Shown: one piece after another, positions 11,689 to 39,548 of the stretch
How the letters are laid out: each line of letters starts with the position of its first letter
Numbering within the stretch: position 1 is the stretch's first letter
Assembly (NCBI RefSeq): GCF_000266945.1
Contig: NC_018025.1
Span: 4,840,001-4,904,000 of the forward strand
Length of the DNA: 64,000 bases
Source of the DNA: Desulfomonile tiedjei DSM 6799
GTDB lineage: Bacteria; Desulfobacterota; Desulfomonilia; Desulfomonilales; Desulfomonilaceae
Reading direction: 5' to 3'
Position numbers and translations under genes: made by a program
Notes under the pieces: model-generated
Seen by the model: only the letters and a program-made list of their open reading frames with translations
Database searches by the model: none
Told to the model about the DNA's origin: nothing

Positions 11689-13422
11689 ATGAACATTGCC
11701 GGATTGCTCATCGGCGTGATTCTCTCTGTGGTATTCGTTTTTTCCGGTACGGCTTCGGCTAGCGGATCGCCTTCGAACAATGCGATTCTCGTTATTCAAG
11801 GCCAGGTTCTGGATTCTGCGGGCAATCCCGTCAGCGATGCCCATGTTCAGCCATTCCGGGACGGACATCCGGTCAAATTTGAAGGAGACGGATCCGGTCA
11901 CAAGAAAGTCTTCACCGGAAGAAACGGACTCTTCATGCTGGAGATCCCCTCGTCTGCGGAAGCGCTGAAAGAGGCCAAATGGACAGCAAAAGTCACCTGT
12001 CCGAGTTTTCGACCATCCCAAATCATACCTTTGAATCTTCACGAACAGGATATCGAAAACGGCGCTCAACGTTTTCTAGGTTCGTTCACGGTAACGCTCC
12101 AACGTTATCAGGGAGCAGCATTCTGGATCGCGCTGGTGGTATTCACGCTCGTGTACGTACTGATTGCGTTTGAAGTGATGCATCGCACGCTGGCGGCCTT
12201 CCTGGGTGCGACCCTCATCCTGTTGATCACCCATACTCTGGGAACGTTCGACGATGCGTACAAGATTCTGACGTACGAGCAGGCATTGCTAAAGATCGAC
12301 TGGAACGTGGTCTTTCTCTTAATGGGCATGATGATCATAGTCGGAGTCTTGAAGATTTCCGGAGTCTTTCAGTGGCTTGCCTATAAGTCTTTTCAGTTGG
12401 CAGGGGGACGCATTTACCTTCTGTCCGCGATCCTCTGCGTCGTCACGGCTATTGCCAGCGCTTTCCTGGATAATGTGACAACCATGTTGCTGCTTACGCC
12501 TGTGACACTCGAAATAGCGCTGGTCTTGAAGGTGTCGCCTTTTGTCTTCCTCATGCCGGAGATCGTTGCCTCCAATTTCGGAGGAACAGCCACACTCATC
12601 GGCGATCCTCCCAACATCATGGTGGGATCGTACGCAGGACTCACTTTCAACGATTTTGTCGTAAATCTTACCCCAGTCGTGATAGTGATTATGGTCCTGC
12701 AGATCCTCTACAATAAATTCCTGTATGGAAAGGAATACTCTCGGGCCAGGGTAGAAGATGTGCCGAATATGATGGCTTTCCTCAAAGAGAAATATCCCAT
12801 TACGGATAGTCGGGTTTTGGTCGTGGGAGGCACGGTGCTCGCTGGTGTTGTGCTCTTGTTCATCCTGCACGGATTTTTCCATATGGAAGTCAGTGTTGCA
12901 GCGCTGTTCGGTGCAGCTCTAATAGTCCTGCTCAATAAAGCGGATGTCATAGAAGTACTGGAAAAAGAAATTGAATGGCCTTCGCTGGTCTTTTTCATCA
13001 TGTTGTTCATTGTGGTCGGCGGGGCAGAGCAAACCGGAATTTTGCAGGCCGTTGCGGACTGGATCTTGAATGTTTCCCAGGGAAATCTCGTGATAGCTAT
13101 ATTGATTATCCTTTGGGTTGCGGGAATCGCATCCGCGATTGTGGATAATATTCCTTTTACTGCAACGATGCTTCCCATAGCAGCGTTTCTGACCAAGACC
13201 ATCCCCGGCGCGGAAAGTGGGGTTTTGTGGTGGGCGTTGGCTCTCGGTGCGTGTTTTGGAGGCAACGGGACCATCATCGGGGCATCAGCGAACGTGGTTA
13301 CAACGGGAATCGCAGAAAGAGCGGGGCACAAAATCAGTTTCTACGATTATTTCAAGCAGGCAGGGCCTATTACGATTGTCAGTCTGATTCTGTCTTCGGC
13401 GTACCTGCTTCTTTTTTACTAA
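11689..13422 (+). CDS. ArsB/NhaD-type ion permease with secreted carboxypeptidase-regulatory-like domain
   Basis: 577 residues. Residues 1-26 form a signal peptide. Residues about 30-140 look like a CarboxypepD_reg beta-sandwich (ILVIQGQVLDSAGNPVSDA, VFTGRNGLFMLEIP). The rest is an 11-12 segment membrane domain of the ion transporter superfamily that includes ArsB, NhaD and CitM. Key stretches are DNVTTMLLLTPVTLEIA, GGTATLIGDPPNIMVGS and GNGTIIGASANVV, the paired re-entrant substrate motifs. The family moves sodium, arsenite or organic anions; which one is not evident. Ribosome site AGAGGTGA precedes the ATG. The extracytoplasmic domain on a permease is unusual. It is single in its transcription unit. 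Confidence 0.85.
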   Translation: MNIAGLLIGVILSVVFVFSGTASASGSPSNNAILVIQGQVLDSAGNPVSDAHVQPFRDGHPVKFEGDGSGHKKVFTGRNGLFMLEIPSSAEALKEAKWTAKVTCPSFRPSQIIPLNLHEQDIENGAQRFLGSFTVTLQRYQGAAFWIALVVFTLVYVLIAFEVMHRTLAAFLGATLILLITHTLGTFDDAYKILTYEQALLKIDWNVVFLLMGMMIIVGVLKISGVFQWLAYKSFQLAGGRIYLLSAILCVVTAIASAFLDNVTTMLLLTPVTLEIALVLKVSPFVFLMPEIVASNFGGTATLIGDPPNIMVGSYAGLTFNDFVVNLTPVVIVIMVLQILYNKFLYGKEYSRARVEDVPNMMAFLKEKYPITDSRVLVVGGTVLAGVVLLFILHGFFHMEVSVAALFGAALIVLLNKADVIEVLEKEIEWPSLVFFIMLFIVVGGAEQTGILQAVADWILNVSQGNLVIAILIILWVAGIASAIVDNIPFTATMLPIAAFLTKTIPGAESGVLWWALALGACFGGNGTIIGASANVVTTGIAERAGHKISFYDYFKQAGPITIVSLILSSAYLLLFY

Positions 13423-13529
13423 CGCCCGATGATTTGTTTCAGGCCATCTCACACCGATTCGCTTTTCATAATCCGGGAGGCTGGAGGTATCCTTCACTAT
13501 CTTACGTGCATATAACGAATGTCAAATTT

Positions 13530-13670
13530 TTCGTCCGATTGCGAAAAGCGCTTCTCGAAAATCGGTGGGTGCCGTGCCTCCGTGCCGGCACATTTTTCAT
13601 AACGAATCAACCAGTTCGGCCCGGCAGAGACGCCGGGCCCTACCGTTCCTTCTAAAGGGTAGGGTGTTCA
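13530..13670. repeat. MITE family A copy
   Basis: Contains CCGATTGCGAAAAGCGCTTC, GTGCCGGCACAT and CCCGGCAGAGACGCCGGG, like the copies at 23690 and 41654. No coding potential seen. Confidence 0.75.
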
Positions 13671-13737
13671 AAACGTCGACAATTATGTCAACTGTTATAG
13701 CTGCGAAAAGGTGCCAGTTTATCCGGCAATTCTTCGT

Positions 13738-13775
13738 ACACAAGAAGAGCCCCTGAACAGGGGCTCTTCTTGTGT
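13738..13775 (-). terminator. Strong hairpin terminator
   Basis: A perfect 17-bp stem (13738-13754 with 13759-13775) and a GAAC loop, 16 bases past the stop of the Spy-like gene on the minus strand. The distal arm is T-rich on that strand. Confidence 0.7.
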
Positions 13776-13790
13776 CGGGATGCTATATGT

Positions 13791-14288
13791 TTACAGCGTG
13801 GAGGAAAAGCCCGGACCTCCGCAGCCGCGACCGGGGCCACCACCGCAACCGGCTCCGAATCCGCATGCACCTGCTCCTCGTCCGAACCCCATGCCCATGC
13901 CGACAGGTCCGAGTTTCTGTCTCTGTTCAGGGGTGAGGAGAGCTCTGAATTTGGTGCCCATAGCCCTGCGCTCGTCTCTCGCCTGATCCTGGAGCGCCCA
14001 GATCTCCTGTCGCTTCTTTTCGATTGCTGCCTCGTCGGCTTTATCTTTGGAAGCAAGTTCCTGAAGTTCGATGCGTTTCTGCGCCATTTGCGACCGAACA
14101 GCTTCCTGTTTTTTCATGAACTCGGTACGCAATGCAGAAGCCTGCTGTTTTTGTTCGGGACTCAGTTCGTTCCACACGGCCGGTCCTCCACCGCCCGCAC
14201 AGCATGCTCCTCGCTGGGCATAAGCTGCCACGGATAGGGATAGTACGAACAAGGCGGCCAAAACGGCAATCGACATTCTACTTTTCAT
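13791..14288 (-). CDS. Spy/CpxP/zinc-resistance-like periplasmic protein
   Basis: 165 residues from the ATG at 14288, chosen because AAGGAG lies just upstream and a signal peptide starts right there (MKSRMSIAVLAALFVLSL). The mature part has the LTxxQ-type motifs of this family (LSPEQKQQ about residue 45 and LTPEQRQKLG about residue 122) with a helical, charged middle. Both ends are rich in Gly and Cys (RGACCAGGGG; C-terminal GFGAGCGGG and GRGCGG), which could bind metal. In the family such proteins are periplasmic chaperones or metal-stress proteins. It is a single gene ending in the terminator at 13738. Confidence 0.85.
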   Translation of the reverse strand: MKSRMSIAVLAALFVLSLSVAAYAQRGACCAGGGGPAVWNELSPEQKQQASALRTEFMKKQEAVRSQMAQKRIELQELASKDKADEAAIEKKRQEIWALQDQARDERRAMGTKFRALLTPEQRQKLGPVGMGMGFGRGAGACGFGAGCGGGPGRGCGGPGFSSTL

Positions 14289-14592
14289 CTGTCCATTCTC
14301 CTTAGAGGAATTCGTCTTTCTATGTGTCACTACCAGCCTGACAGAAGAATCCCGCGCAGCTACTCGAGAATTTTTCAATTATTTTGGATTTCCAATCGAG
14401 AAACCACTTGGAATCTTGCTGCCCTCAACGTTCGGAGAGAATCTATGACGGGTGACAGAGACTTCCATGCTTCTTCTGTATTGAGATAGCCGCAGCCAGC
14501 AGTTTTACTTTGCAGAATTATTGAGAAATGGTCTTCTCAGCATTTCAGCTCACGCTTCGGCGTCTCGGAATCTCAATTCCGCAAGATAAAAC

Positions 14593-14931
14593 TCAGTCAA
14601 CAATTTGTTCACCTTTATCGCGGAGCCACAGCTTGATGGCGGCATTGAGTATTCGATCGAGATCATTATACTTGACGGACCCTTCAAGCTCTTTGACTAG
14701 TTCATCGGGTACTTTAATATGTTGGAGCCACATGAGATAGTCAGGGGGAACTTCCGCCGGAAAGATAATGTGAACTCGTTGCTTATCAGTAGCCTCTTTT
14801 CGTTGGGCTGATGGCAGTTCCAGGAAATGGAGAATAGACGCCTGAATCGATTTGTCCCGGTCAGAAGGAAGCTTCGCCAGATAGTCTCCTCTTATCAAAG
14901 CAGAATATTTTCCTTTTTCAACACGAGTCAT
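14593..14931 (-). CDS. Hypothetical protein, 112 residues
   Basis: Soluble, mixed-charge protein with no signal peptide or membrane segment. I recognise no family. Composition and length would fit a small regulator or antitoxin, but nothing specific supports that. It is 18 bases downstream of another minus-strand unknown gene (14950), so they may be co-transcribed. The upstream ribosome site is weak (TAAGAATGAAAG). Confidence 0.55.
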   Translation of the reverse strand: MTRVEKGKYSALIRGDYLAKLPSDRDKSIQASILHFLELPSAQRKEATDKQRVHIIFPAEVPPDYLMWLQHIKVPDELVKELEGSVKYNDLDRILNAAIKLWLRDKGEQIVD

Positions 14932-29684: not shown

Positions 29685-29740
29685 TTGACATTTCACTTTG
29701 AGTCGTCTACAAATGACAGGCAAGTCTATCTATAATAGAC
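29685..29740 (+). promoter_or_regulatory. Promoter region of the ferrosome-like locus
   Basis: TTGACA (29685-29690), a 17-base spacer and TACAAA (29708-29713) form a plausible sigma-70 promoter. Downstream, GTCTATCTATAATAGAC (29724-29740) is a perfect 6-bp-arm palindrome overlapping where a transcript would start, so a repressor site is possible. No Fur-like GATAATGATAATC motif was seen. Confidence 0.45.
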
Positions 29741-29876: not shown

Positions 29877-32315
29877 ATGCATATGAAAGCCGAGTTCCTG
29901 AGTACCGCGGAAAAGGTGCGAATATCCCAATCGAATGGATATTTCATGGAAGATATCCTGATCCGCCACGCTATTCCCGGGAGAATGCGAGTCAAGGTCT
30001 CGGCTATCCGTTTTCTCCAGGCTCGAGCCCACTATCTCCAGGTGTGGCTTTCTGAACGTAGGGAAATCGCATTTGTAGAAGTCCGCTCAGGCACCGGAAG
30101 TGTCATTTTGGAGTACGATCCTCAGAAAATAGGATGCTCCGCGATGGTGGACCTGGTCCTTGCAGGAGTGCGGGCGGCTCTGTCAGCTCCTGAGACGAGT
30201 TCTTCAGTTCAGGGAGCGGTATGTGGGTCGGATTGTCCGGTATGCCGGCCATCAGAGCGGCAGATAGAACAATCCTTTACCGGACGTATTGTGGAAGTCG
30301 TCGCTCTCTCGTGTTTCATGCTCTATGCTCTCGTTCGGCAGATCTTCTTCAAAACTCCGCTTGCCCAGGGTCCTCTCAGTATAGTTGCCCTTGTGGCAAC
30401 TGCCGCTGCTATTCCGCTGCTCCGACACGCGTTGCACGACATGAAACAGGGCAGGTTCACCAGTCTTTTTCCATTCCTGGCTGCTACTACCCTGCTGGCC
30501 ATTTTCACCGGAGAAGCTCTCACTGCTCTGGAAGTCATCTGGATACTTCGCGTGGGTCTGCTTCTCGAGGATTACGTGGCTGACAAGTCCCGTAAGGCGA
30601 TCCGAGAAATTCTGCTGCTGGCAGAGAAGAACACCTTCATCTGGGTTGATGGAGTTGAAGTGGAGACTCCCGTGGACCAGTTGCAGATCGGAGACACCGT
30701 TGTAGTGCATACCGGTGAGAAGATTCCGGTAGACGGAAGTGTCATAAGAGGTGAAGCGTTGGTCGATGAGTCTCACATTACCGGTCGATCGCACCCGGAA
30801 GTCCGGGGGAAAGGCACCCCTGTATTCGCAGGCACCATCGTGCAGAGAGGGGTCATCTTCATCAAAGCGGAGAAGGTTGGCGATAATACGTATCTTTGTC
30901 GAATACTCCACATGGTGGAAGACTCACTCGCAAACCGTGCGCCTGTCGAGAAGCATGCGGATATTCTTGCAGGTAGACTGATGTATCTGGGGACAGCGGC
31001 TACGGCCGGAACCCTCCTCTTTACCGGGAGTCTCGTGCGTTCCTTTACCGTGATGCTGGTGATGGCCTGCCCTTGTGCGACGGTGCTCGCTTCATCCACC
31101 GCCATAACGGCAGCTATAGCCAATGCGGCGCGTAACCACACACTCATTAAAGGGGGCCTCTACCTTGAGATGGTGGGCAAGGCGGACTGCTTCTGCTTTG
31201 ACAAAACCGGTACCCTGACAACGGATGTGTCGGAAGTGGTTGAAGTTGTCCCACGCTCACCCAAACTGAAACCTCGGGACGTCCTGGCACTTGCGGCAGC
31301 GGCGGAGATCCATAATGAGCACCCCATGGCCAAGTCAATTGTGGAAGCAGCGAACAGTCAGGGCATAGTTCCCGAACCCCATGCTGTATGCGACTTCGTG
31401 CTGGGAAGAGGTGTCAGGGCCGAGCTTCGCGGTGACACCATTCTCGTGGGAAATCTCAAGTTCATGGAAGAACAGGACGTGAATACTTCCTTCTTCAAGG
31501 CACGGGCAGCTAAGGTTATTGCTGACGGGAATACTGCTCTTTATGTGGCAAAGAACGGCAGAGTGCAGGGCATGATTGCGGTCGCCAATAGCGTTCGTCC
31601 TCGAGCCGAATCCGTATTGCAGTGGCTCAGAGGCGACGGCGTAAAGACTCTTCATATGGTTACAGGGGATACCGAAGGCATGGCCAAAGCAATGGCGGAA
31701 AGCTTTGGTTTTGACGAGTACCGTGCAAGCCTGCTTCCGGAAGATAAAGGTCGCTATGTGGCAGACCTGCAAACCAACGGCAGACGACTGGCAATGGTGG
31801 GAGACGGAGTGAATGACGCTCTGGCTCTTTCTAAAGCTCATGTGGGCATAGCAATGGGAGCAGGCGGTGCTGAGGTTGCCATTGAATCCGCGGATATCGC
31901 TCTCGTGGACAGCGACCTGGAAAGACTGGTCTCGCTACGTCAGCTCAGTCATCAGACGCTCAGGATTGTGGAGCAAAATCACTGGCTGGCCATCTCTACC
32001 AACGTCCTCGGAGCCTTCTTTGGGGCTGCCGGATTGCTGTCGCCCGTCATGGGAGGCCTTCTCCACATTGTTCATACTCTGGGAATACTTTTGAACTCGA
32101 AAAGACTGGAAACCTGGGAAGCACCGGGGCTTTTGGATGAAAAGACAAGTCCCGGCCGTTACACTGGCGTGAAGCGAACGAGCGGAGCATTGTTGCCCCA
32201 CAGAGAACTGGGGCGTTCACAAAGCCCACGAACCTCCGCAGAATCATGCGTCGCAGCGAAGGGTGCGGAGCATGGTTCGCGAAATGTGAAGGAGCAACCA
32301 TTCAGTTACGCATGA
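29877..32315 (+). CDS. P1B-type metal ATPase with HMA_2-type N-terminus (first of two)
   Basis: 812 residues; GAGGAGGG sets the start. Residues about 25-85 are an HMA_2-like domain without CxxC (RHAIPGRMRVKVSAIRF; GTGSVILEYDP), then a CPVC pair near 121. Membrane segments follow, with the metal-site CPC at 398-400, phosphorylation site DKTGTLTTD (Asp442), nucleotide-binding HP in NEHPMAKS, and GDGVNDA. The C-terminal helices read SPVMGG..HIVHTLGILLNSKRL. ATPases of this layout (FezB in known ferrosome clusters) load iron into a lipid-bound organelle. The last roughly 60 residues (after WEAPGLLDE) are unlike the second ATPase and may come from inserted DNA. Metal identity is inferred. Confidence 0.88.
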   Translation: MHMKAEFLSTAEKVRISQSNGYFMEDILIRHAIPGRMRVKVSAIRFLQARAHYLQVWLSERREIAFVEVRSGTGSVILEYDPQKIGCSAMVDLVLAGVRAALSAPETSSSVQGAVCGSDCPVCRPSERQIEQSFTGRIVEVVALSCFMLYALVRQIFFKTPLAQGPLSIVALVATAAAIPLLRHALHDMKQGRFTSLFPFLAATTLLAIFTGEALTALEVIWILRVGLLLEDYVADKSRKAIREILLLAEKNTFIWVDGVEVETPVDQLQIGDTVVVHTGEKIPVDGSVIRGEALVDESHITGRSHPEVRGKGTPVFAGTIVQRGVIFIKAEKVGDNTYLCRILHMVEDSLANRAPVEKHADILAGRLMYLGTAATAGTLLFTGSLVRSFTVMLVMACPCATVLASSTAITAAIANAARNHTLIKGGLYLEMVGKADCFCFDKTGTLTTDVSEVVEVVPRSPKLKPRDVLALAAAAEIHNEHPMAKSIVEAANSQGIVPEPHAVCDFVLGRGVRAELRGDTILVGNLKFMEEQDVNTSFFKARAAKVIADGNTALYVAKNGRVQGMIAVANSVRPRAESVLQWLRGDGVKTLHMVTGDTEGMAKAMAESFGFDEYRASLLPEDKGRYVADLQTNGRRLAMVGDGVNDALALSKAHVGIAMGAGGAEVAIESADIALVDSDLERLVSLRQLSHQTLRIVEQNHWLAISTNVLGAFFGAAGLLSPVMGGLLHIVHTLGILLNSKRLETWEAPGLLDEKTSPGRYTGVKRTSGALLPHRELGRSQSPRTSAESCVAAKGAEHGSRNVKEQPFSYA

Positions 32316-32327
32316 GAGAGGTTTCTT

Positions 32328-32515
32328 CAGCCCCGAAGGGGCTTCCCAACAGTAGCCGTGGGTGCAAACCCACGGAAGCGATACGGCAAATCCTTTGTCT
32401 TCAGGACCCTGAAAGGGTCCACCAATGACATTTGGGAATCTTGCCTGTTGGTCGACCCTTTCAGGGTCGTTGAACCATGCTTATGGACATGGCGCTGTCC
32501 AGTCCACGGGTTGAC
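32328..32515. repeat. Palindromic repeat cluster at the left flank of IS1182
   Basis: Holds GCCCCGAAGGGGC, CCGTGGGTGCAAACCCACGG and ACCCTGAAAGGGT palindromes. The same set, in altered order, surrounds the MITE at 38948. The last palindrome arm CCACGGGT is separated from its partner ACCCGTGG (34202-34209) by the IS element. Confidence 0.75.
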
Positions 32516-34196
32516 GAAACTGTCTCAAAACTCCATTTTGGGCTCGCGATTTGCCAAGAGATGTACTAGAAAGGAGAGGAATTCAACAACCACGAGGCTG
32601 TCATGGGCAAACAGATCCGGGCCGATTACGAACAGATCTTGATGTTTCCGCCGTCAGTGGAAGACTGGGTGGCTAAGGATCACCCGGCGCGCTTTATCCG
32701 AGATTTCGTGGATTCCTTGGATCTGTCCGAGTTGGGAATCGAGGTTCCCGACAGCGATACAGGACGTCCTCCGTATGCGCCAGATCTTCTGTTGAAGGTG
32801 TGGCTTTTCGGATACTTCAATCGGATCAGGAGTACCCGTAAGCTTGAAAAGGGTTGCCTTGAGAATATGGGGCTGATTTGGCTGACGGGGATGAATGCTC
32901 CGGATCATAATTCCTTATGGCGATTCTTCAAGGCGAACAAGAAATCATTGAGGCATCTGTTCAGACAGTCGATTCGTGTTGCTCTGAAGGCCGATCTGAT
33001 CGGTCTAGCTCTTCATGCCGTGGACGGGACCAAGATCCAAGCCGTCTCATCCAACGACAAGGCTCGGGGTCGTGAGCACCTGGAGAGGTTTCTGGAAAGT
33101 GTTTCGGAGAGATTGGACCGCACGATTGCCGATGCGATGACTGAGATAGAGAGAGCCGAGCGGGAAGAGACCGGTGAGTATCGCCTTCCGCAGTCCATGC
33201 AAGACGGATTGAAACGGAAACAGCGGATACAAGAGGCTCTGAAGGAGTTGGATGAATCGGACAAGAAGTCAGTTCACCCTTCGGAACCGGAAGCTCGCTT
33301 TATGAAGAATCGCCGGACCAAAGACTTGTCGTACAACGCTCAGGCGGTTGCCGACCAAAAGAGCGGCCTTATCGTGGCCGCAGATGTGGTCACGGATGGG
33401 GCCGACAACGGGCAATTGGTCCCCATGCTCGACAAGGTGAAAGAGAATCTGGGCGCTGTGGCAGAGGAAAATGTGGCGGACGGGGGATATTTTTCCTCAG
33501 GGCAGATAGGTCTGGCCCATGAGCGAGAATACGGCATTCTTATCGGGAAATCGTCAGGGGAAATTGTTTCCGAGAGAGGTGCGGATGAGGATCTCTATCA
33601 CCGATCCCGGTTCGTCTTTGATCAGGAGCGTGATTGCTTCATATGCCCTGAAGGGCGCTTGTTGCCTTTTCATCAGCGGAAAATTAACGGCAAGAACCAC
33701 AATGAGGTTCGCAGGTATCACTGCAAGGATTTTCTAACGTGTCCCAATCGCTGGAAATGCTCCAAGAGCAAGAACGGACGCCTCATAGACCTCAGCGTTT
33801 ACGAGGCGGCCCTAGAACGACACCGCAGCAAGAGGGAAAAACCAGAGAACAAAGAGCGCCTGAAGACTCGAAAGAAGATTATCGAGCCACCGTTTGCCTG
33901 GATCAAGAGCGCATTAAGCTTTCGGCGATGGACCGTGGCCGGAATCGACAACGTAAAGGCCCAGTGGGACCTTATTTGCACGACCATAAATCTCAGGAAG
34001 CTCTACCACCATTGGGTATCCGGCGAGGTGGCATTCACGTAAGCAGCCGGAGGGAGACCATGACCTTATAACGGACAGTACACTCGGATCGAACCTCGCC
34101 TGATCTTCACTTGACGGGACTGCTTTTTTCCCAGAAGCAGGTCCTCCCGTCCGGCTTGCGTGATTCGCCGCAGTGCGCAGGTTTTGAGACGCTTTC
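32516..34196 (+). mobile_element. IS1182-family insertion sequence
   Basis: About 1681 bp with terminal repeats GAAACTGTCTCAAAAC (left) and GTTTTGAGACGCTTTC (right), and TGAC on both sides (32512-32515, 34197-34200). Removing the IS restores CCACGGGTTGACACCCGTGG, a perfect hairpin, so it inserted in a hairpin loop. It separates the two ATPase genes of the ferrosome-like locus and may interrupt their co-transcription. Confidence 0.88.
32603..34042 (+). CDS. IS1182-family DDE transposase
   Basis: 479 residues, full length. It starts MGKQIRADYEQILMFPPS, has the N-terminal DUF772-like region (PPYAPDLLLKVWLFGYFNRI), the first DDE aspartate in LHAVDGTKIQAV, the second in VAENVADGGYFS-like sequence (ENVADGGYFSS), a cysteine zinc-like cluster (CFICPEG..CKDFLTCPNRWKC) and a terminal EPPFAWIKSALSFRRW with the Glu. 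The frame is intact, so the element may be active. Confidence 0.94.
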   Translation: MGKQIRADYEQILMFPPSVEDWVAKDHPARFIRDFVDSLDLSELGIEVPDSDTGRPPYAPDLLLKVWLFGYFNRIRSTRKLEKGCLENMGLIWLTGMNAPDHNSLWRFFKANKKSLRHLFRQSIRVALKADLIGLALHAVDGTKIQAVSSNDKARGREHLERFLESVSERLDRTIADAMTEIERAEREETGEYRLPQSMQDGLKRKQRIQEALKELDESDKKSVHPSEPEARFMKNRRTKDLSYNAQAVADQKSGLIVAADVVTDGADNGQLVPMLDKVKENLGAVAEENVADGGYFSSGQIGLAHEREYGILIGKSSGEIVSERGADEDLYHRSRFVFDQERDCFICPEGRLLPFHQRKINGKNHNEVRRYHCKDFLTCPNRWKCSKSKNGRLIDLSVYEAALERHRSKREKPENKERLKTRKKIIEPPFAWIKSALSFRRWTVAGIDNVKAQWDLICTTINLRKLYHHWVSGEVAFT

Positions 34197-34286
34197 TGAC
34201 ACCCGTGGCTACTATTGGGCCGCCCTTCCAGGGCGCAGAATCCCCAATGCCCGCTCGTAACTGAACGGTTACGTGAAGGAGCAAGA

Positions 34287-36554
34287 ATGAGCTTCAAAAT
34301 CGCACATACTCTGGATTGGCGGACAAGAATCAAAGTTCCCTATCTGGTGAATCGCAGGGAAGCTGCGCAACGGGTCGCCGATGCTTTAAACAACATCCCT
34401 GCGATCAGCACGGTTGAAGTTCATTTGGGAACGGGTTCTGTCATCTTGTTTCATCCGGATGCCTCTCCGGACTTCCATACCGTACGGGAAGTACTGGCCT
34501 CTGAGGTTCCTTCTGTGAGGAGAGGGCAATGTGACGATAGTGCTGTGTGTTCATCGTGCTCTCCTTCCCTCGCAGCGATTGAGCGCTCCCATGTTTCCGG
34601 AGCAGTGCTTGTAATCACAGGGCTTTACATTCTCTTTGAATGGATACGGCGTCTTTTCTCTGGAGGCAGCGGAACTCCCGGCGGTTCGTGGTTGATCCCC
34701 CGCATATTCAATCTCCCTGCGCTTGTAGCTGCGGGCCTGAGCATCCCAATCATGAAGGAAGCAGTGCGGAGCCTGTTTACCCGAGGGGTCAGCATGGACC
34801 TTCTTGTGACCTGTGCGGCCGTTCTGTCAATTCTCATGGGTGAGGCTATGGCTGCGCTGGTTGTCATGTGGCTGGTGAATTTCTCTGAATGGCTCGAGAC
34901 CCAGACGGTTGAGAGGACGAGGAAAGCCATTCGAGACATGCTCAAGCAGGAGATCAGAGAAACATGGGTGATCAGAGATGGAGTTGAAGTGCAGGTTGCC
35001 GTCTCCAATCTCGTGAAGGGCGATATTGTCAGCATACGAGAAGGCGATGCTGTCCCAGCAGACGGAAAGGTAGTTTACGGCGAGGCTTTGATAAACGAAT
35101 CGGCCATGACGGGCGAATCCCGGCCGGTATTTAAAGTAGTGGGAGACGTCGTGCTCGCGGGTACCACCGTGGATATGGGAAAAATACATATTGAAGTGGA
35201 ATCCACCGGCGAAGAGACGCGACTCGGCCAGATCGTTCGTCTCATTGAAGAGGGCCAAGAACACAAAGCCGAGATCGTCCTCTCATCCCAGCGATTCAGT
35301 GATGCAGTTGTCCCCTTTTCTCTGGGATTATCACTGCTCACTTACATCCTCACCGGTAATGTGCAACGTGCCATGGCTATGCTGATCATCGCTTGTCCCT
35401 GCGGTGTGAGCCTTTCAACGCCCACGGCTCTCAGCGCTGCCATGGGAAATGCCGCGCGCCAGGGTAGTCTTGTCAAGGGCGGGCGGTACCTCGAAGGAGC
35501 CGGACAGATAAAGCATCTTACCTTCGACAAGACCGGTACGCTGACGTCCGGTGTTCCCAGGGTTTCCCGGGTAATCTCTCTTGACGACCGATATCAGCCG
35601 ATACAGATCCTTCAATTGGCAGCAAGTTCTCAGATGCATTACAAGCACCCGATGACCTTGGCGGTTCTCAACAAGGTACGAGAGTCCGAAATCGAAATTC
35701 CTCGCCATGAAAAAACCGAGCTCATTATCGGTCATGGGGTAAAGGCAAAAATCAATGGCGACGAAATCCTCGTAGGCAGTCACCACTTTATGGAGGATTA
35801 CCGGGTCGATCATGACGCGGGCCATGATGAGGAGGAAAGAATGCTTGCCAGAGGAGAAAGCGTTCTTTTCGTGGCATGCAACCGTCGGCTCATCGGGCTC
35901 ATGGGAGTGGAAGATCGCATGAAGGAGTCCGCGAGAGAAGCTCTCCTTGCTCTGAAAGCTCTCGGCGTAGAACACATTGCCATGTTGACGGGCGACCGCG
36001 AGGAACATGCGAGAGCCCTCGCTCAGCATCTGCCCATTGACACGATCAGGTGGGAACAATCGCCCGAGGACAAAGCCTCATGGATCATGCAATGCAAGAC
36101 ACTCTATCCCGACTCGACCGTGGCCATGATAGGAGACGGGATCAACGACGCGCCTGCGTTTTCCCATGCAGATATCAGCTTTGCCATGGGTGACACAGGG
36201 GCTGACGTGGCCATCGAAAATGCAGACGTAGTGCTCCGTAATGGAGACCTGGCGCTCGTTGCCCAGACGGTAGCCCTGGGACAGAAAACTCTGAAAATAA
36301 TACGGCAGAATTACGGCATTTCTGTGGTGTTGAATTTGGCAGGGATGCTCTTTGCTGCACTCGGATGGGTTTCCCCACTGGCGGGTGCGGTTTTTCATAA
36401 CCTTATAACTGTGGGCGTGGTGAGCAATTCGACCAAGCTCCTTTTTTACAGGGAGGATTTGGCTGCCCTGGCGGAGAACGCTCGAGAAGATGAAACGGCT
36501 GAAGGAAACGGCCAAAGACATGCGGAAGGGGGCGAACCGCAGAACGCCCAATAA
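34287..36554 (+). CDS. P1B-type metal ATPase with HMA_2-type N-terminus (second of two)
   Basis: 755 residues from the ATG at 34287, fixed by AAGGAG at 34276. Same plan as the first ATPase: an HMA_2-type start (LDWRTRIKVPYLVN; GTGSVILFHPD), a CSSC pair near 94, about eight membrane segments, CPC at 370-372, DKTGTLTSG (Asp414), YKHPMTLAV, and GDGINDAPAFS. The C-terminal helices read SPLAGAVFHNLITVGVVSNS. The RIKVPY motif and gene context make this the better FezB-like candidate. It is followed by the three glycine-zipper membrane protein genes. The C-terminal 30 residues are charged and His/Glu rich. Confidence 0.9.
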   Translation: MSFKIAHTLDWRTRIKVPYLVNRREAAQRVADALNNIPAISTVEVHLGTGSVILFHPDASPDFHTVREVLASEVPSVRRGQCDDSAVCSSCSPSLAAIERSHVSGAVLVITGLYILFEWIRRLFSGGSGTPGGSWLIPRIFNLPALVAAGLSIPIMKEAVRSLFTRGVSMDLLVTCAAVLSILMGEAMAALVVMWLVNFSEWLETQTVERTRKAIRDMLKQEIRETWVIRDGVEVQVAVSNLVKGDIVSIREGDAVPADGKVVYGEALINESAMTGESRPVFKVVGDVVLAGTTVDMGKIHIEVESTGEETRLGQIVRLIEEGQEHKAEIVLSSQRFSDAVVPFSLGLSLLTYILTGNVQRAMAMLIIACPCGVSLSTPTALSAAMGNAARQGSLVKGGRYLEGAGQIKHLTFDKTGTLTSGVPRVSRVISLDDRYQPIQILQLAASSQMHYKHPMTLAVLNKVRESEIEIPRHEKTELIIGHGVKAKINGDEILVGSHHFMEDYRVDHDAGHDEEERMLARGESVLFVACNRRLIGLMGVEDRMKESAREALLALKALGVEHIAMLTGDREEHARALAQHLPIDTIRWEQSPEDKASWIMQCKTLYPDSTVAMIGDGINDAPAFSHADISFAMGDTGADVAIENADVVLRNGDLALVAQTVALGQKTLKIIRQNYGISVVLNLAGMLFAALGWVSPLAGAVFHNLITVGVVSNSTKLLFYREDLAALAENAREDETAEGNGQRHAEGGEPQNAQ

Positions 36555-36579
36555 CAAGAGCGAAAGTGAAGATAGGTTT

Positions 36580-36740
36580 TGTAGTTATTGCCAAAATAAA
36601 CGACCGAGACTCAGTGTAGATGTTAGTCGAAAAATCCCCCCTACCCCCCTTTAATAAGGGGGGAATTAAGATGTTGCATTCTTACCCCCCTTTCGTAAAG
36701 GGGGGCTGGGGGGATTTTAGATCGGACAGGCAAACACTAT
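36580..36740. repeat. C-rich MITE, uninterrupted copy
   Basis: TGTAGTTATTGCCAAAATAA at the left, GGCAAACACTAT at the right, CCCCCCTTT/AAAGGGGGG hairpins inside. It matches 22891-23274 minus the nested element there. Confidence 0.8.
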
Positions 36741-36825
36741 GATCCTGACAAAGAAAGGATCTTCTCGGAGAGTCAAGTAGTCACAATTCAGAAGAATGTC
36801 GATGCACCAGCTTGAGGAGGTACAC

Positions 36826-37659
36826 ATGATAGAAACGCCGATCGCGCAGGAACAATATGGGAACCAGGGTGAAGCTGTTTCCATGCCGGAATCGGCAGGA
36901 GTTCAGTGGAAATCAGAGGAAAATGTCGCAGGCAAGATTCAGGAAAGTGTTTGTGAATCCGGGTACGGAAGTCATGGGACTGCCACGGCAGGAGATCCGG
37001 GGCAGACGTGCTCTGAGAGCCGAGGGGGCTCGGGTCAATCAGGATCGGGAATCCCGGACTCAGGAGTCGGATGCAGTGAGCAAAGCGGGGCGTCACCGCA
37101 CACACAGGGAGCTTGGAATCCGGGCGTGGGTCCGCAACAGACGGGCGCTATGCCCGGTCAGGCAGCTCAGTATGGACCGTACATGTACAATCCCGGTTAC
37201 TACGAGAATCCTACCTTCGGACATCCTATGGGCGGTTCCCCGCAATACGTGCATCCGGGTATGGGACACCACCCGGGATGCTTTGCACATCACACGGGAA
37301 TGCACTGGCATCCGCAGCAGGGTCCCCATTTCGGAGCCAATCCCGGACCCGGTTTCGGCTATGCAGAGTCTGGCCGTCATGCAGGACAAGGGGAACAGAA
37401 TTACGGCCAGTTTGCAGATATGGTCGGAAAGGCCTTGCAGGGACAAGCAAATCCACAGGATCTGCTCAGCGGACTTTTGAATCTGAATTTCAGCGGCGAT
37501 CAGTTCTGGAAAGGGGTCATTGTCGGGAGTGTTGCTGCGCTCCTGGTGAGTAGCGACTCTGTCCGACAGGCTGTGACAGGCGCTTTGGGGGGAATCTTCG
37601 GTAAAGCCCAGGCAACAACAGCACAATCTGAAGATAAAACAGGCGAAAATGCCTCGTAG
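36826..37659 (+). CDS. Gly/Pro/His-rich protein with C-terminal FWKG membrane segment
   Basis: 277 residues from the ATG at 36826, set by GAGGAGG. About 200 residues are low complexity, rich in Gly, Pro, Ser, Gln and Tyr, with a His-rich patch (MGHHPGCFAHHTGMHWHPQQ) that could bind metal. Residues about 215-250 read LLNLNFSGDQFWKGVIVGS then VAALLVSSDSV, a single hydrophobic segment of small residues. The same motif occurs in the protein at 38203. No signal peptide. I infer a membrane-anchored, disordered organelle-shell or iron-nucleating protein of the ferrosome-like locus; the family is not recognised. Confidence 0.8.
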   Translation: MIETPIAQEQYGNQGEAVSMPESAGVQWKSEENVAGKIQESVCESGYGSHGTATAGDPGQTCSESRGGSGQSGSGIPDSGVGCSEQSGASPHTQGAWNPGVGPQQTGAMPGQAAQYGPYMYNPGYYENPTFGHPMGGSPQYVHPGMGHHPGCFAHHTGMHWHPQQGPHFGANPGPGFGYAESGRHAGQGEQNYGQFADMVGKALQGQANPQDLLSGLLNLNFSGDQFWKGVIVGSVAALLVSSDSVRQAVTGALGGIFGKAQATTAQSEDKTGENAS

Positions 37660-37774
37660 GGCGCACAAAGAACCTGCCGTCGATCTGCGTGCAGGACATG
37701 AACTTGCATGACATTCACCAGCGGTAAAAATGTAAACAGCCGGAATTTTCATTTAAATAAGAAAGGAGACAAAC

Positions 37775-38167
37775 ATGAACGGTTATCCCTATTACTCCTA
37801 TCAAGGTCATTATCCCACTTATTATGGGACCAGGGCCGGGGTTGGTCCTGTAGACCCTGCACGAGTACTCGCAGCAGGCGGATTCGGATTCGTAGTGGGC
37901 GGCTCGGCAGCCCTGGGAGTCAATCTCCACAAAATGCGGGCCAATCAGATGACGCTGAACGAAGCGCTTATTGACTCTCTTGCCAAAGGTGCTGGTGCCG
38001 GTGTGGCAACAGCCGCTGCAACTGCGGCCGCTTCTGCTGTGGGCGGTTCGGGCATCGTCTCCTTTGCTGTCATGGCCGCTACTGCTACGGGAGTCATCTA
38101 TTTGCTGAACTCCATCGGCAAGCATGCAGCGGAAGAGGTAGTGGTCCCCTCGAAAAGGGCCAAGTAG
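37775..38167 (+). CDS. MamC-like glycine/alanine-zipper membrane protein
   Basis: 130 residues, ribosome site AAAGGAGA. A Tyr-rich N-terminus (YPYYSYQGHY) is followed by two small-residue membrane helices, about 34-52 (AAGGFGFVVGGSAALGV) and about 72-105 (AGAGVATAAATAAASAVGG..), separated by a charged loop (NLHKMRANQMTLNEA). This plan resembles the magnetosome protein MamC and small proteins found beside P1B ATPases in ferrosome-type clusters. A scaffold or pore role in an iron-containing vesicle membrane is inferred. Confidence 0.78.
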   Translation: MNGYPYYSYQGHYPTYYGTRAGVGPVDPARVLAAGGFGFVVGGSAALGVNLHKMRANQMTLNEALIDSLAKGAGAGVATAAATAAASAVGGSGIVSFAVMAATATGVIYLLNSIGKHAAEEVVVPSKRAK

Positions 38168-38202
38168 AGCAGTCGACCATTCATAGATCAGGAGGAATTC
38201 AC

Positions 38203-38814
38203 ATGGACTATACGCAATATGGTAATCCGGGAACTCAGGCAACCGGCCCGGCTGCGGGACAATCCGGGTGCGGTTGTTCCACCTCAACAGGTCCCACCCC
38301 TTCTCCATTCCCACCATCTCCTATGATGCCCGGCCCATCCATGGAATCCGGCGGATTCGGCGGCGCACCCGGCGCATCGGCCTCAATGGGACCGATGCAG
38401 GGAGGACCGCACCAGGCTCCGTCAGGTCATACGGGTTGCAGCGGAGGTTCACCTCAACCAGGAGCCGGTCCAGGCGGCCATGCTCATCCCGGCACCTCTC
38501 AGGGCGCATACATGCATCATCCGCCTTTGCATGAGGCTTACCACTACGGGTATTATCCACATGGTGCAGTTCCGCAGTACGCTGCGCCGACTTCAGAAGG
38601 GTATTCATTCCTCGGCTTGAATTTTAGCGACGGCAATTTCTGGAAGGGTGCGCTCGTCGGGGCTGCTATTACTCTCCTCATCACCAACGAAACAGTTCAA
38701 AGGACCATTATGATGGGTGTCGCCAAGGCCTACTCGGCTGCCCAAGAGGGCATGGGCGAGATGAAGGAGATGTTTGAGGACGCCCAGGCGGAATTGAGAA
38801 AATCAAAGGAATAG
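38203..38814 (+). CDS. Paralogous Gly/Pro/His-rich protein with FWKG membrane segment
   Basis: 203 residues, AGGAGGAATTC ribosome site, 35 bases after the MamC-like gene. Residues 1-130 are low complexity (Gly, Pro, Ser, His, Met; CGCSTS near residue 23; HHPPLHEAYHYGYYPHG). Then LGLNFSDGNFWKGALVGAA at about 143, one membrane segment, and an amphipathic charged helix (GEMKEMFEDAQAELRKSKE). The membrane motif is shared with the protein at 36826 (LNFS..FWKG..VG..LL), so the two are paralogues. Predicted part of the same organelle system. Confidence 0.8.
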   Translation: MDYTQYGNPGTQATGPAAGQSGCGCSTSTGPTPSPFPPSPMMPGPSMESGGFGGAPGASASMGPMQGGPHQAPSGHTGCSGGSPQPGAGPGGHAHPGTSQGAYMHHPPLHEAYHYGYYPHGAVPQYAAPTSEGYSFLGLNFSDGNFWKGALVGAAITLLITNETVQRTIMMGVAKAYSAAQEGMGEMKEMFEDAQAELRKSKE

Positions 38815-38859
38815 CTCGAATACAGGTAAGCGTTCAGTTATTCGGAAAAAAATGGACTT

Positions 38860-39235
38860 TTGAGCTCCAGAGGAGCGAACCAACAGTGGCCACGAGTGAA
38901 CCCCGTGGAACAGAGCGTCCATTATCTCTGATAAGACCCTGCCAGGGCATAGGTGTTACCTTAGCGTGTTCTTGGTTGTTTGTTCCAGAGGAACATCGGG
39001 AAATAGACCGGCGATTCATCGCCGGTTACGGTAAAAATGTAATGATTTTCGAGTCCTGAAGGGACGACTGATTCACTAATCCCCGGCAATGAATTACCGG
39101 GCTATTTTCTCTAGTCCCTTCGGGACAAAGAATTATATAACAAAGTTAACGCCTATGACCCGCCAGGGTCCGCAAGAACAAGGATTTCGACATATGGGTT
39201 GCCCCTCCGGGGCATTCATCGAATGCCGCACGTAA
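38860..39235. repeat. Palindromic repeats split by a family B MITE
   Basis: Palindromes like those at 32328 flank the element: GAGCTCCAGAGGAGC-type and CCACGAGTGAACCCCGTGG at left, GCCCCTCCGGGGC at right. The intervening MITE is at 38948-39157; ACCCTGCCAGGG and ACCCGCCAGGG next to it look like a diverged target duplication. Confidence 0.7.
38948..39157. mobile_element. 210-bp MITE (family B), second copy
   Basis: Ends CATAGGTGTTACCTT and AAAGTTAACGCCTATG; the interior matches 23019-23227, including CCGGCGATTCATCGCCGG and GAATTACCGGG. Noncoding. Confidence 0.85.
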
Positions 39236-39335
39236 GTGAATGCTTACCAATACAGACTGATCCGGGTCACGTTACGTCTGCAAAAGCAGTTCCGCACCGC
39301 CCCGGACATCTTCTCTACCAAAGGTTTGAATAGCA

Positions 39336-39548
39336 ATGGAACCAAGTACTATCAGAACACTGACCAAAATAGGGATGGTCGGCTCTTTAGCCGTTCTCAT
39401 TCTTCCCCAATTTCACGAGGGAAGTAGCGGAAACCGTCACGGTCAAACGCAGAGCCTGGATCTTCACACCTGGGCGGGAATTGCTCTGGTGGGTTTCACG
39501 GTCTGGCATTATAACTGCTATCAGCCACCCGTATGGGTCCAGAAGTAA
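39336..39548 (+). CDS. Small two-helix membrane protein with cytochrome-b-like histidines
   Basis: 70 residues with two hydrophobic stretches: IGMVGSLAVLILPQFHEG and LHTWAGIALVGFTVWHYN. The second has His residues spaced about 14 apart with an intervening Gly, the pattern of heme-coordinating helices in cytochrome b-type/DUF4405 proteins. It might bind heme with a partner or dimer. It lies about 520 bp downstream of the ferrosome-like genes, after a MITE, so membership in the locus is uncertain. The ribosome site is weak. Confidence 0.55.
   Translation: MEPSTIRTLTKIGMVGSLAVLILPQFHEGSSGNRHGQTQSLDLHTWAGIALVGFTVWHYNCYQPPVWVQK

Follow-up and report, generated by a model that had tools for sequence, protein, structure and literature searches.

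The region at positions 29877-39548 of the analysed DNA holds six genes on the forward strand, coding for two P1B ATPases, two proteins with a common FWKG membrane motif, a MamC-like protein and a FezC-like protein. It is best explained as a multi-gene iron-storage cluster of the fez (ferrosome) type which lacks FezB and was probably acquired horizontally; a probability of about 60% is assigned to this reading. Gene sets of this type serve other bacteria in making iron-storing membrane vesicles. FezB is regarded as the pump at the centre of ferrosomes, and the oddity of the cluster is a subtraction, the canonical FezB being absent and two related pumps being found in its place. A literature search found no electron microscopy study of iron granules in the sulfate-reducing bacterium Desulfomonile tiedjei, and as long as granules have not been observed the cluster is better called fez-like.

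The window, i.e. the whole stretch of 64,000 nucleotides analysed, corresponds to positions 4840001-4904000 of the chromosome contig (6,500,104 bases), within a two-contig genome of 6,527,027 bases. The features of the cluster are the following:

29877..32315, + strand: ATP-I, a P1B ATPase of 812 aa, with an HMA_2 N-terminus, ACPCAT in transmembrane segment (TM) 4 and LHIVHTLGI in TM6
32504..34208, + strand: IS1182-family element, with a transposase at 32603-34042 and 28-nt terminal inverted repeats at 32504-32531 and 34181-34208
34284..36554, + strand: ATP-III, a P1B-6-like ATPase of 756 aa, with an HMA_2-like N-terminus, ACPCG in TM4 and FHN in TM6
36826..37659, + strand: long FWKG protein, 277 aa, Gly/Gln/Ser/Pro/His-rich, with a C-terminal FWKG membrane motif
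37775..38167, + strand: MamC-family protein, 130 aa, Gly/Ala-zipper helices connected by a charged stretch (E63, D67)
38203..38814, + strand: short FWKG protein, 203 aa, Gly/Pro/His-rich, carrying the FWKG membrane motif and, at the C-terminus, a coil rich in Glu and Lys
39336..39548, + strand: FezC-like small membrane protein, 70 aa, with two family-conserved His residues (HTWAG ... WH)

All reading frames of the cluster are intact, and clear ribosome-binding sites were found for five of the six genes. The long FWKG gene is taken to start at the ATG at 36826, with a strong Shine-Dalgarno sequence (GAGGAGGT), the longest ORF beginning at an upstream ATG at 36796. An earlier note on this DNA had described two ATPases of the HMA_2 type, a MamC-like zipper protein and two His/Gly/Pro-rich proteins with a common membrane motif. 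All of them were recovered by similarity searches: both ATPases match E1-E2_ATPase, Hydrolase and, at the N-terminus, HMA_2; the 130-aa product matches the NCBIfam MamC model (NF038051) at 2e-11; the two FWKG proteins share the C-terminal motif, with 36% identity over 45 aa. The IS1182 element and the 70-aa FezC-like gene lie in the same region and are not mentioned there.

The HMA_2 match of ATP-I (E 1e-7) is above the curated cut-off, and that of ATP-III (E 8.5e-7) is just under it. According to their TM motifs, the ATPases of such clusters are of three kinds: the FezB type, with D[YF]SC in TM4 and HN in TM6; type I, with ACPCAT and, in TM6, LHIVHTLGI; and type III, with CPC and HN. In the tree each kind forms one side of a branch with 100/100 support, where FezB of D. 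magneticus is placed in the FezB type, ATP-I in type I and ATP-III in type III, and both window ATPases lie outside the 100/100 FezB clade. A FezB-clade ATPase was not found in the complete genome by searching with a FezB profile, the top scorer being ATP-III, with 565 bits versus the 930-1078 bits of the cluster FezB of two other genomes.

When the reference set was enlarged, all three kinds formed a superclade (100/100) together with HMA_2-associated and DUF1490-linked pumps. This HMA_2/P1B-6-like superclade excludes CopA/SilP and ZntA/CadA, and the grouping with copper or zinc exporters, which the earlier note had set against a ferrosome, is thus absent. Plain Cu (P1B-1) or Zn/Cd (P1B-2) exporters are ruled out by the same superclade. 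Branching within it is not resolved by the trees: ATP-III as a sister of FezB is supported by only 83/26 and, in the enlarged tree, by 80/74, while a single clade of ATP-I and ATP-III is not rejected (p-AU 0.33). The clade of ATP-I is found beside such clusters. A CPC motif, typical of Cu/Zn pumps, is kept by both window ATPases.

A link to a proven ferrosome system is provided by the 70-aa protein. It weakly matches DUF4405, and a profile of its family finds FezC of D. magneticus with an E value of 6.5e-9, the match covering the C-terminal half of FezC. The latter belongs to an operon of three genes (L080) arranged like fezABC, and because of this arrangement the genome, which we take to be the Desulfovibrio magneticus RS-1 chromosome, was used as a reference for the proven system. 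The operon resembles the window cluster in having HMA_2-bearing P1B ATPase(s), a small protein with a TM segment and a coil, and a FezC-like cytochrome; unlike the window, D. magneticus has FezB and shows neither an FWKG-family nor a MamC match, and its FezC is a fused HMA_2-FezC protein of 146 aa, against the 70 aa of the window protein. Both His residues are invariant across the FezC-like family, and for a 62-aa relative a fold of two helices is predicted with moderate confidence. FezC and DUF4405 proteins have been shown to bind haem b, and FezC has been modelled as a homodimer (PMC10979944); from its sequence, the 70-aa protein is likewise predicted to bind haem.

The idea of a ferrosome-type locus, put forward in the earlier note, is supported by the small proteins, which have homologues in fez-like clusters, among them the FezC encoded by the D. 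magneticus operon. The comparison with the Fez families suggested there gave a divided answer, positive for FezC, negative for FezB and equivocal for FezA.

A profile made from the short-FWKG family alone recovers the long protein in most other clusters. The FWKG proteins resemble FezA in architecture, with a TM segment and a coil, but their profile gives no match in D. magneticus, and they are only candidate counterparts of FezA. The short protein also has a YtxH/PacL-like architecture, but its matches to YtxH and DUF6110 are weak.

MamC gives magnetite crystals their shape in magnetic bacteria. The match between the MamC model and the 130-aa protein is ungapped over 77 residues and reaches 44 bits, versus an equivalog cut-off of 100 bits. 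The likeness includes the Gly/Ala-zipper helices and the charged loop, the window protein differing by an N-terminal extension. The model matches 11 of 11 tested family members, with a best E value of 9.5e-15, and MamC-like proteins of Vibrio and Arcobacter at 9e-9 and 9e-7; as scores stay below the equivalog cut-off, these proteins are a family homologous to MamC, and not MamC proper. A chance match due to Gly/Ala content is ruled out by reversed and shuffled controls, which give no match, and none of 14 control genomes was matched by the model. E63 and D67 of the window protein have the i, i+4 spacing (E-x3-D) of the loop residues Glu66 and Asp70 reported for MamC (PMC7604359), and the pair is kept in some relatives and missing from others. 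The predicted fold is of low confidence (pLDDT 63), without PDB matches with E below 2, and a PDB sequence search with the family profile gave chance-level matches only.

The distribution of these families was analyzed in 395 sampled Desulfobacterota genomes. The profile of the FWKG motif (A1) matched 13 genomes, and in 12 of them the motif occurs twice, at a distance of less than about 1.2 kb, the thirteenth match lying near a contig end. The MamC-like profile matched the same 13 genomes and one weak extra, and the FezC-like profile 12 of the 13 and three others. As some of these clusters had served as seeds for the profiles, the overlap is a measure of specificity and not an independent discovery; the co-occurrence of the families, always in the same 12-13 genomes out of 395, is far from chance. 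A scan of named genomes produced 20 loci, including those of Solidesulfovibrio aerotolerans, Desulfobotulus alkaliphilus, Desulfocarbo indianensis and Desulfobulbus rhabdoformis, all of them deltaproteobacterial, which reflects the peptide pattern used and not absence elsewhere.

The usual gene order is ATP-I, long FWKG, MamC-like, short FWKG, FezC-like, FezB-type ATPase. Clusters of Desulfocarbo, Solidesulfovibrio and Desulfobotulus (L003, L041-L043) contain the same six families, with the small proteins in the same order as in the window, and end in a FezB-clade ATPase, whereas the window has ATP-III upstream and the IS1182 insertion. Where the contig is long enough, a Desulfobacterota cluster usually includes the same pair of proteins along with two or three ATPases. 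Two ATPases are thus ruled out as an oddity, and the "elaborated form" seen by the earlier note in two ATPases plus paired disordered proteins finds no support in that sense. In Desulfobulbus-type clusters, the type III ATPase follows the short FWKG gene, the usual place of FezB, and FezB is found upstream. In four such loci (L047, L052, L053, L056), a single cluster is surrounded by one ATPase of the FezB type and one of the ATP-I type; L047 and L052 have an ATP-III as well, which brings the number of ATPases to three.

The exact gene order of the window, lacking the IS and having no FezB in the cluster, was found in one metagenome-assembled genome (G246, 85% complete; locus L029), so that the FezB-less arrangement appears to be maintained. 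None of the other sampled members of the family to which the window belongs has MamC-like or FWKG genes, which suggests that the cluster was probably gained horizontally.

Similar associations are found on plasmids and secondary replicons of Azospirillum, Arcobacter and Vibrio, where FezB-clade pumps adjoin a short-FWKG/YtxH protein (E 1e-14 to 1e-18); a MamC-like protein is found beside the pump in Arcobacter and Vibrio, and a FezC-like protein in Arcobacter. The Azospirillum operon (L097) has six genes, the same number as the R. palustris fez operon, RPA2333-2338 (PMC12016538), and is a likely proxy for the six-gene fez operons of R. palustris and S. putrefaciens. Like the window cluster, it combines a short-FWKG/YtxH protein, a FezC-like protein (a weak match) and a P1B ATPase in one operon. 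It has one FezB-clade pump versus two non-FezB pumps in the window, and no long FWKG protein, and the gene that occupies the MamC position has diverged too far to be assigned. No relatives of the MamC-like or short FWKG proteins were found on plasmids by single-sequence search, nor were relatives of the FezC-like or MamC-like proteins confirmed on viral contigs.

A few other loci emerged from these searches. Outside the standard cluster, L083 also codes, at 12139-14901, for a second FezB-type ATPase; the other strand carries an additional MamC-like gene (NCBIfam MamC, E 1.5e-14), which overlaps with a YtxH-like one. Two Deinococcus plasmids (L099:7185-9815 and L101:7206-9833) code for a DUF6110 protein and a FezB-clade pump, a minimal FezA-FezB-like pair; in the tree these pumps are placed as the sister group of D. 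magneticus FezB. On a Priestia plasmid (L104:2150-5662), three HMA2-domain proteins surround a P1B-6-like ATPase with DFICG in TM4, which is placed near the FezB clade but outside it.

The IS1182 element, about 1.7 kb long, is inserted between the two ATPase genes and separates ATP-I from the rest of the cluster. It is an intruder and not part of the system; as 19 near-identical full-length copies are present in the genome, the insertion is probably recent. Many further sites match only the ends of the element; they occur in pairs, spaced by about 200 nt, and may be shortened forms of it. Repeat-like runs (CCCCCTTT...GGGGG and palindromic motifs) are located between cluster genes at 36600-36730 and 38850-39300; the repeat-like sequence between the short FWKG and the FezC-like genes amounts to about 520 nt. 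A perfect palindrome, GTCTATctataATAGAC, is found at 29724-29740, 140 nt upstream of ATP-I, overlapping a TATAAT-like hexamer. It is the sole match in the window at up to 2 mismatches, with a chance expectation of 1.24, and is a weak operator candidate only. No Fur-type box was found in the window within 3 mismatches of the Fur consensus, promoter and terminator scans gave no more matches than in shuffles, and no iron gene was seen among the neighbours of the cluster.

If the cluster is of the ferrosome type, its MamC-like protein and both FWKG proteins would form a membrane scaffold that clusters the ATPases; Gly-rich transmembrane segments combined with a charged coil are an architecture also seen in FezA and PacL proteins. 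The scaffold would shape or line a vesicle, into which the ATPases would pump Fe(II); the FezC-like cytochrome may adjust the redox state of the iron, and the mineral may be bound or seeded by the loop of the MamC-like protein and by the disordered tails rich in His, Gly and Pro. As FezB is absent, the pumping would have to be done by ATP-III, which occupies the FezB slot in several relatives, and/or by ATP-I. Gene content, homology, the conserved gene order, the IS insertion and the failure to find a FezB-clade ATPase are direct observations; iron as the substrate, the vesicles, haem binding and each step of this mechanism are predictions. Iron storage is suggested by the FezC family link, the FWKG and MamC-like proteins beside FezB-clade pumps elsewhere, the synteny and the superclade placement. 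The position of both ATPases outside the FezB clade, their CPC motifs, the likeness of ATP-III to PacL-linked pumps and the failure to find a Fur-type box, neighbouring iron genes or published microscopy of granules count against it. The more specific proposal of a FezB-independent ferrosome, in which the CtpC-like CPC pumps ATP-III and/or ATP-I took over iron loading, is advanced tentatively.

The main rival is a metal-efflux platform (effluxosome) of the PacL type, in which the FWKG proteins would scaffold CtpC-like pumps in plasma-membrane foci and zinc or cadmium would be expelled, without any vesicle. The zinc exporter CtpC belongs to a kind of pump found inside the same superclade as FezB and the window ATPases, and its described signature, CPC and HN (PMC9374683), is present in ATP-III, in TM4 and TM6. 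Moreover, the best plasmid matches of ATP-III are actinobacterial PacL/CtpC-type pumps, encoded directly after DUF1490 (PacL) genes, and the TM segment with a charged coil is shared with PacL and the PacL-like DUF6110 proteins. However, the window pumps do not form one clade with the DUF1490 pumps in the tree, none of the small proteins of the window cluster matches DUF1490, the described platforms have neither a FezC-like cytochrome nor a MamC-like protein, and the same set of small proteins accompanies FezB-clade pumps in other phyla. An efflux platform is accordingly regarded as unlikely, while deserving serious attention.

Less probable still is that a former ferrosome cluster is decaying after the loss of FezB and the IS1182 insertion, and that the remaining genes build nothing. 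This would fit the failure to find FezB in the genome, the IS between the ATPase genes and the repeat-like sequence that cuts the FezC-like gene off from the rest, but is at odds with the intact reading frames, most of them with clear ribosome-binding sites, and with the same FezB-less order in G246. A magnetosome-related locus, producing a crystalline iron mineral instead of amorphous storage granules, is hinted at by the MamC homology and the spacing of E63 and D67, but appears very improbable: no other cluster protein matched a magnetosome family, no magnetosome genes surround the MamC-like gene, the acid pair is not kept in all relatives, and D. magneticus makes magnetosomes in spite of having no MamC match.

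Should the FezB-independent ferrosome be confirmed, the organelle would be defined by its scaffold proteins (FWKG, MamC-like and FezC) and not by FezB, and magnetosome MamC would share ancestry with a ferrosome component. A cluster that retains scaffold and cytochrome while changing its pumps would set vesicle building apart from transport, and would expose loci missed by FezB searches. That these clusters share a MamC-family protein suggests that ferrosomes and magnetosomes have parts in common. As the complete genome appears to be from a cultured organism, the cluster would be open to experiment there.
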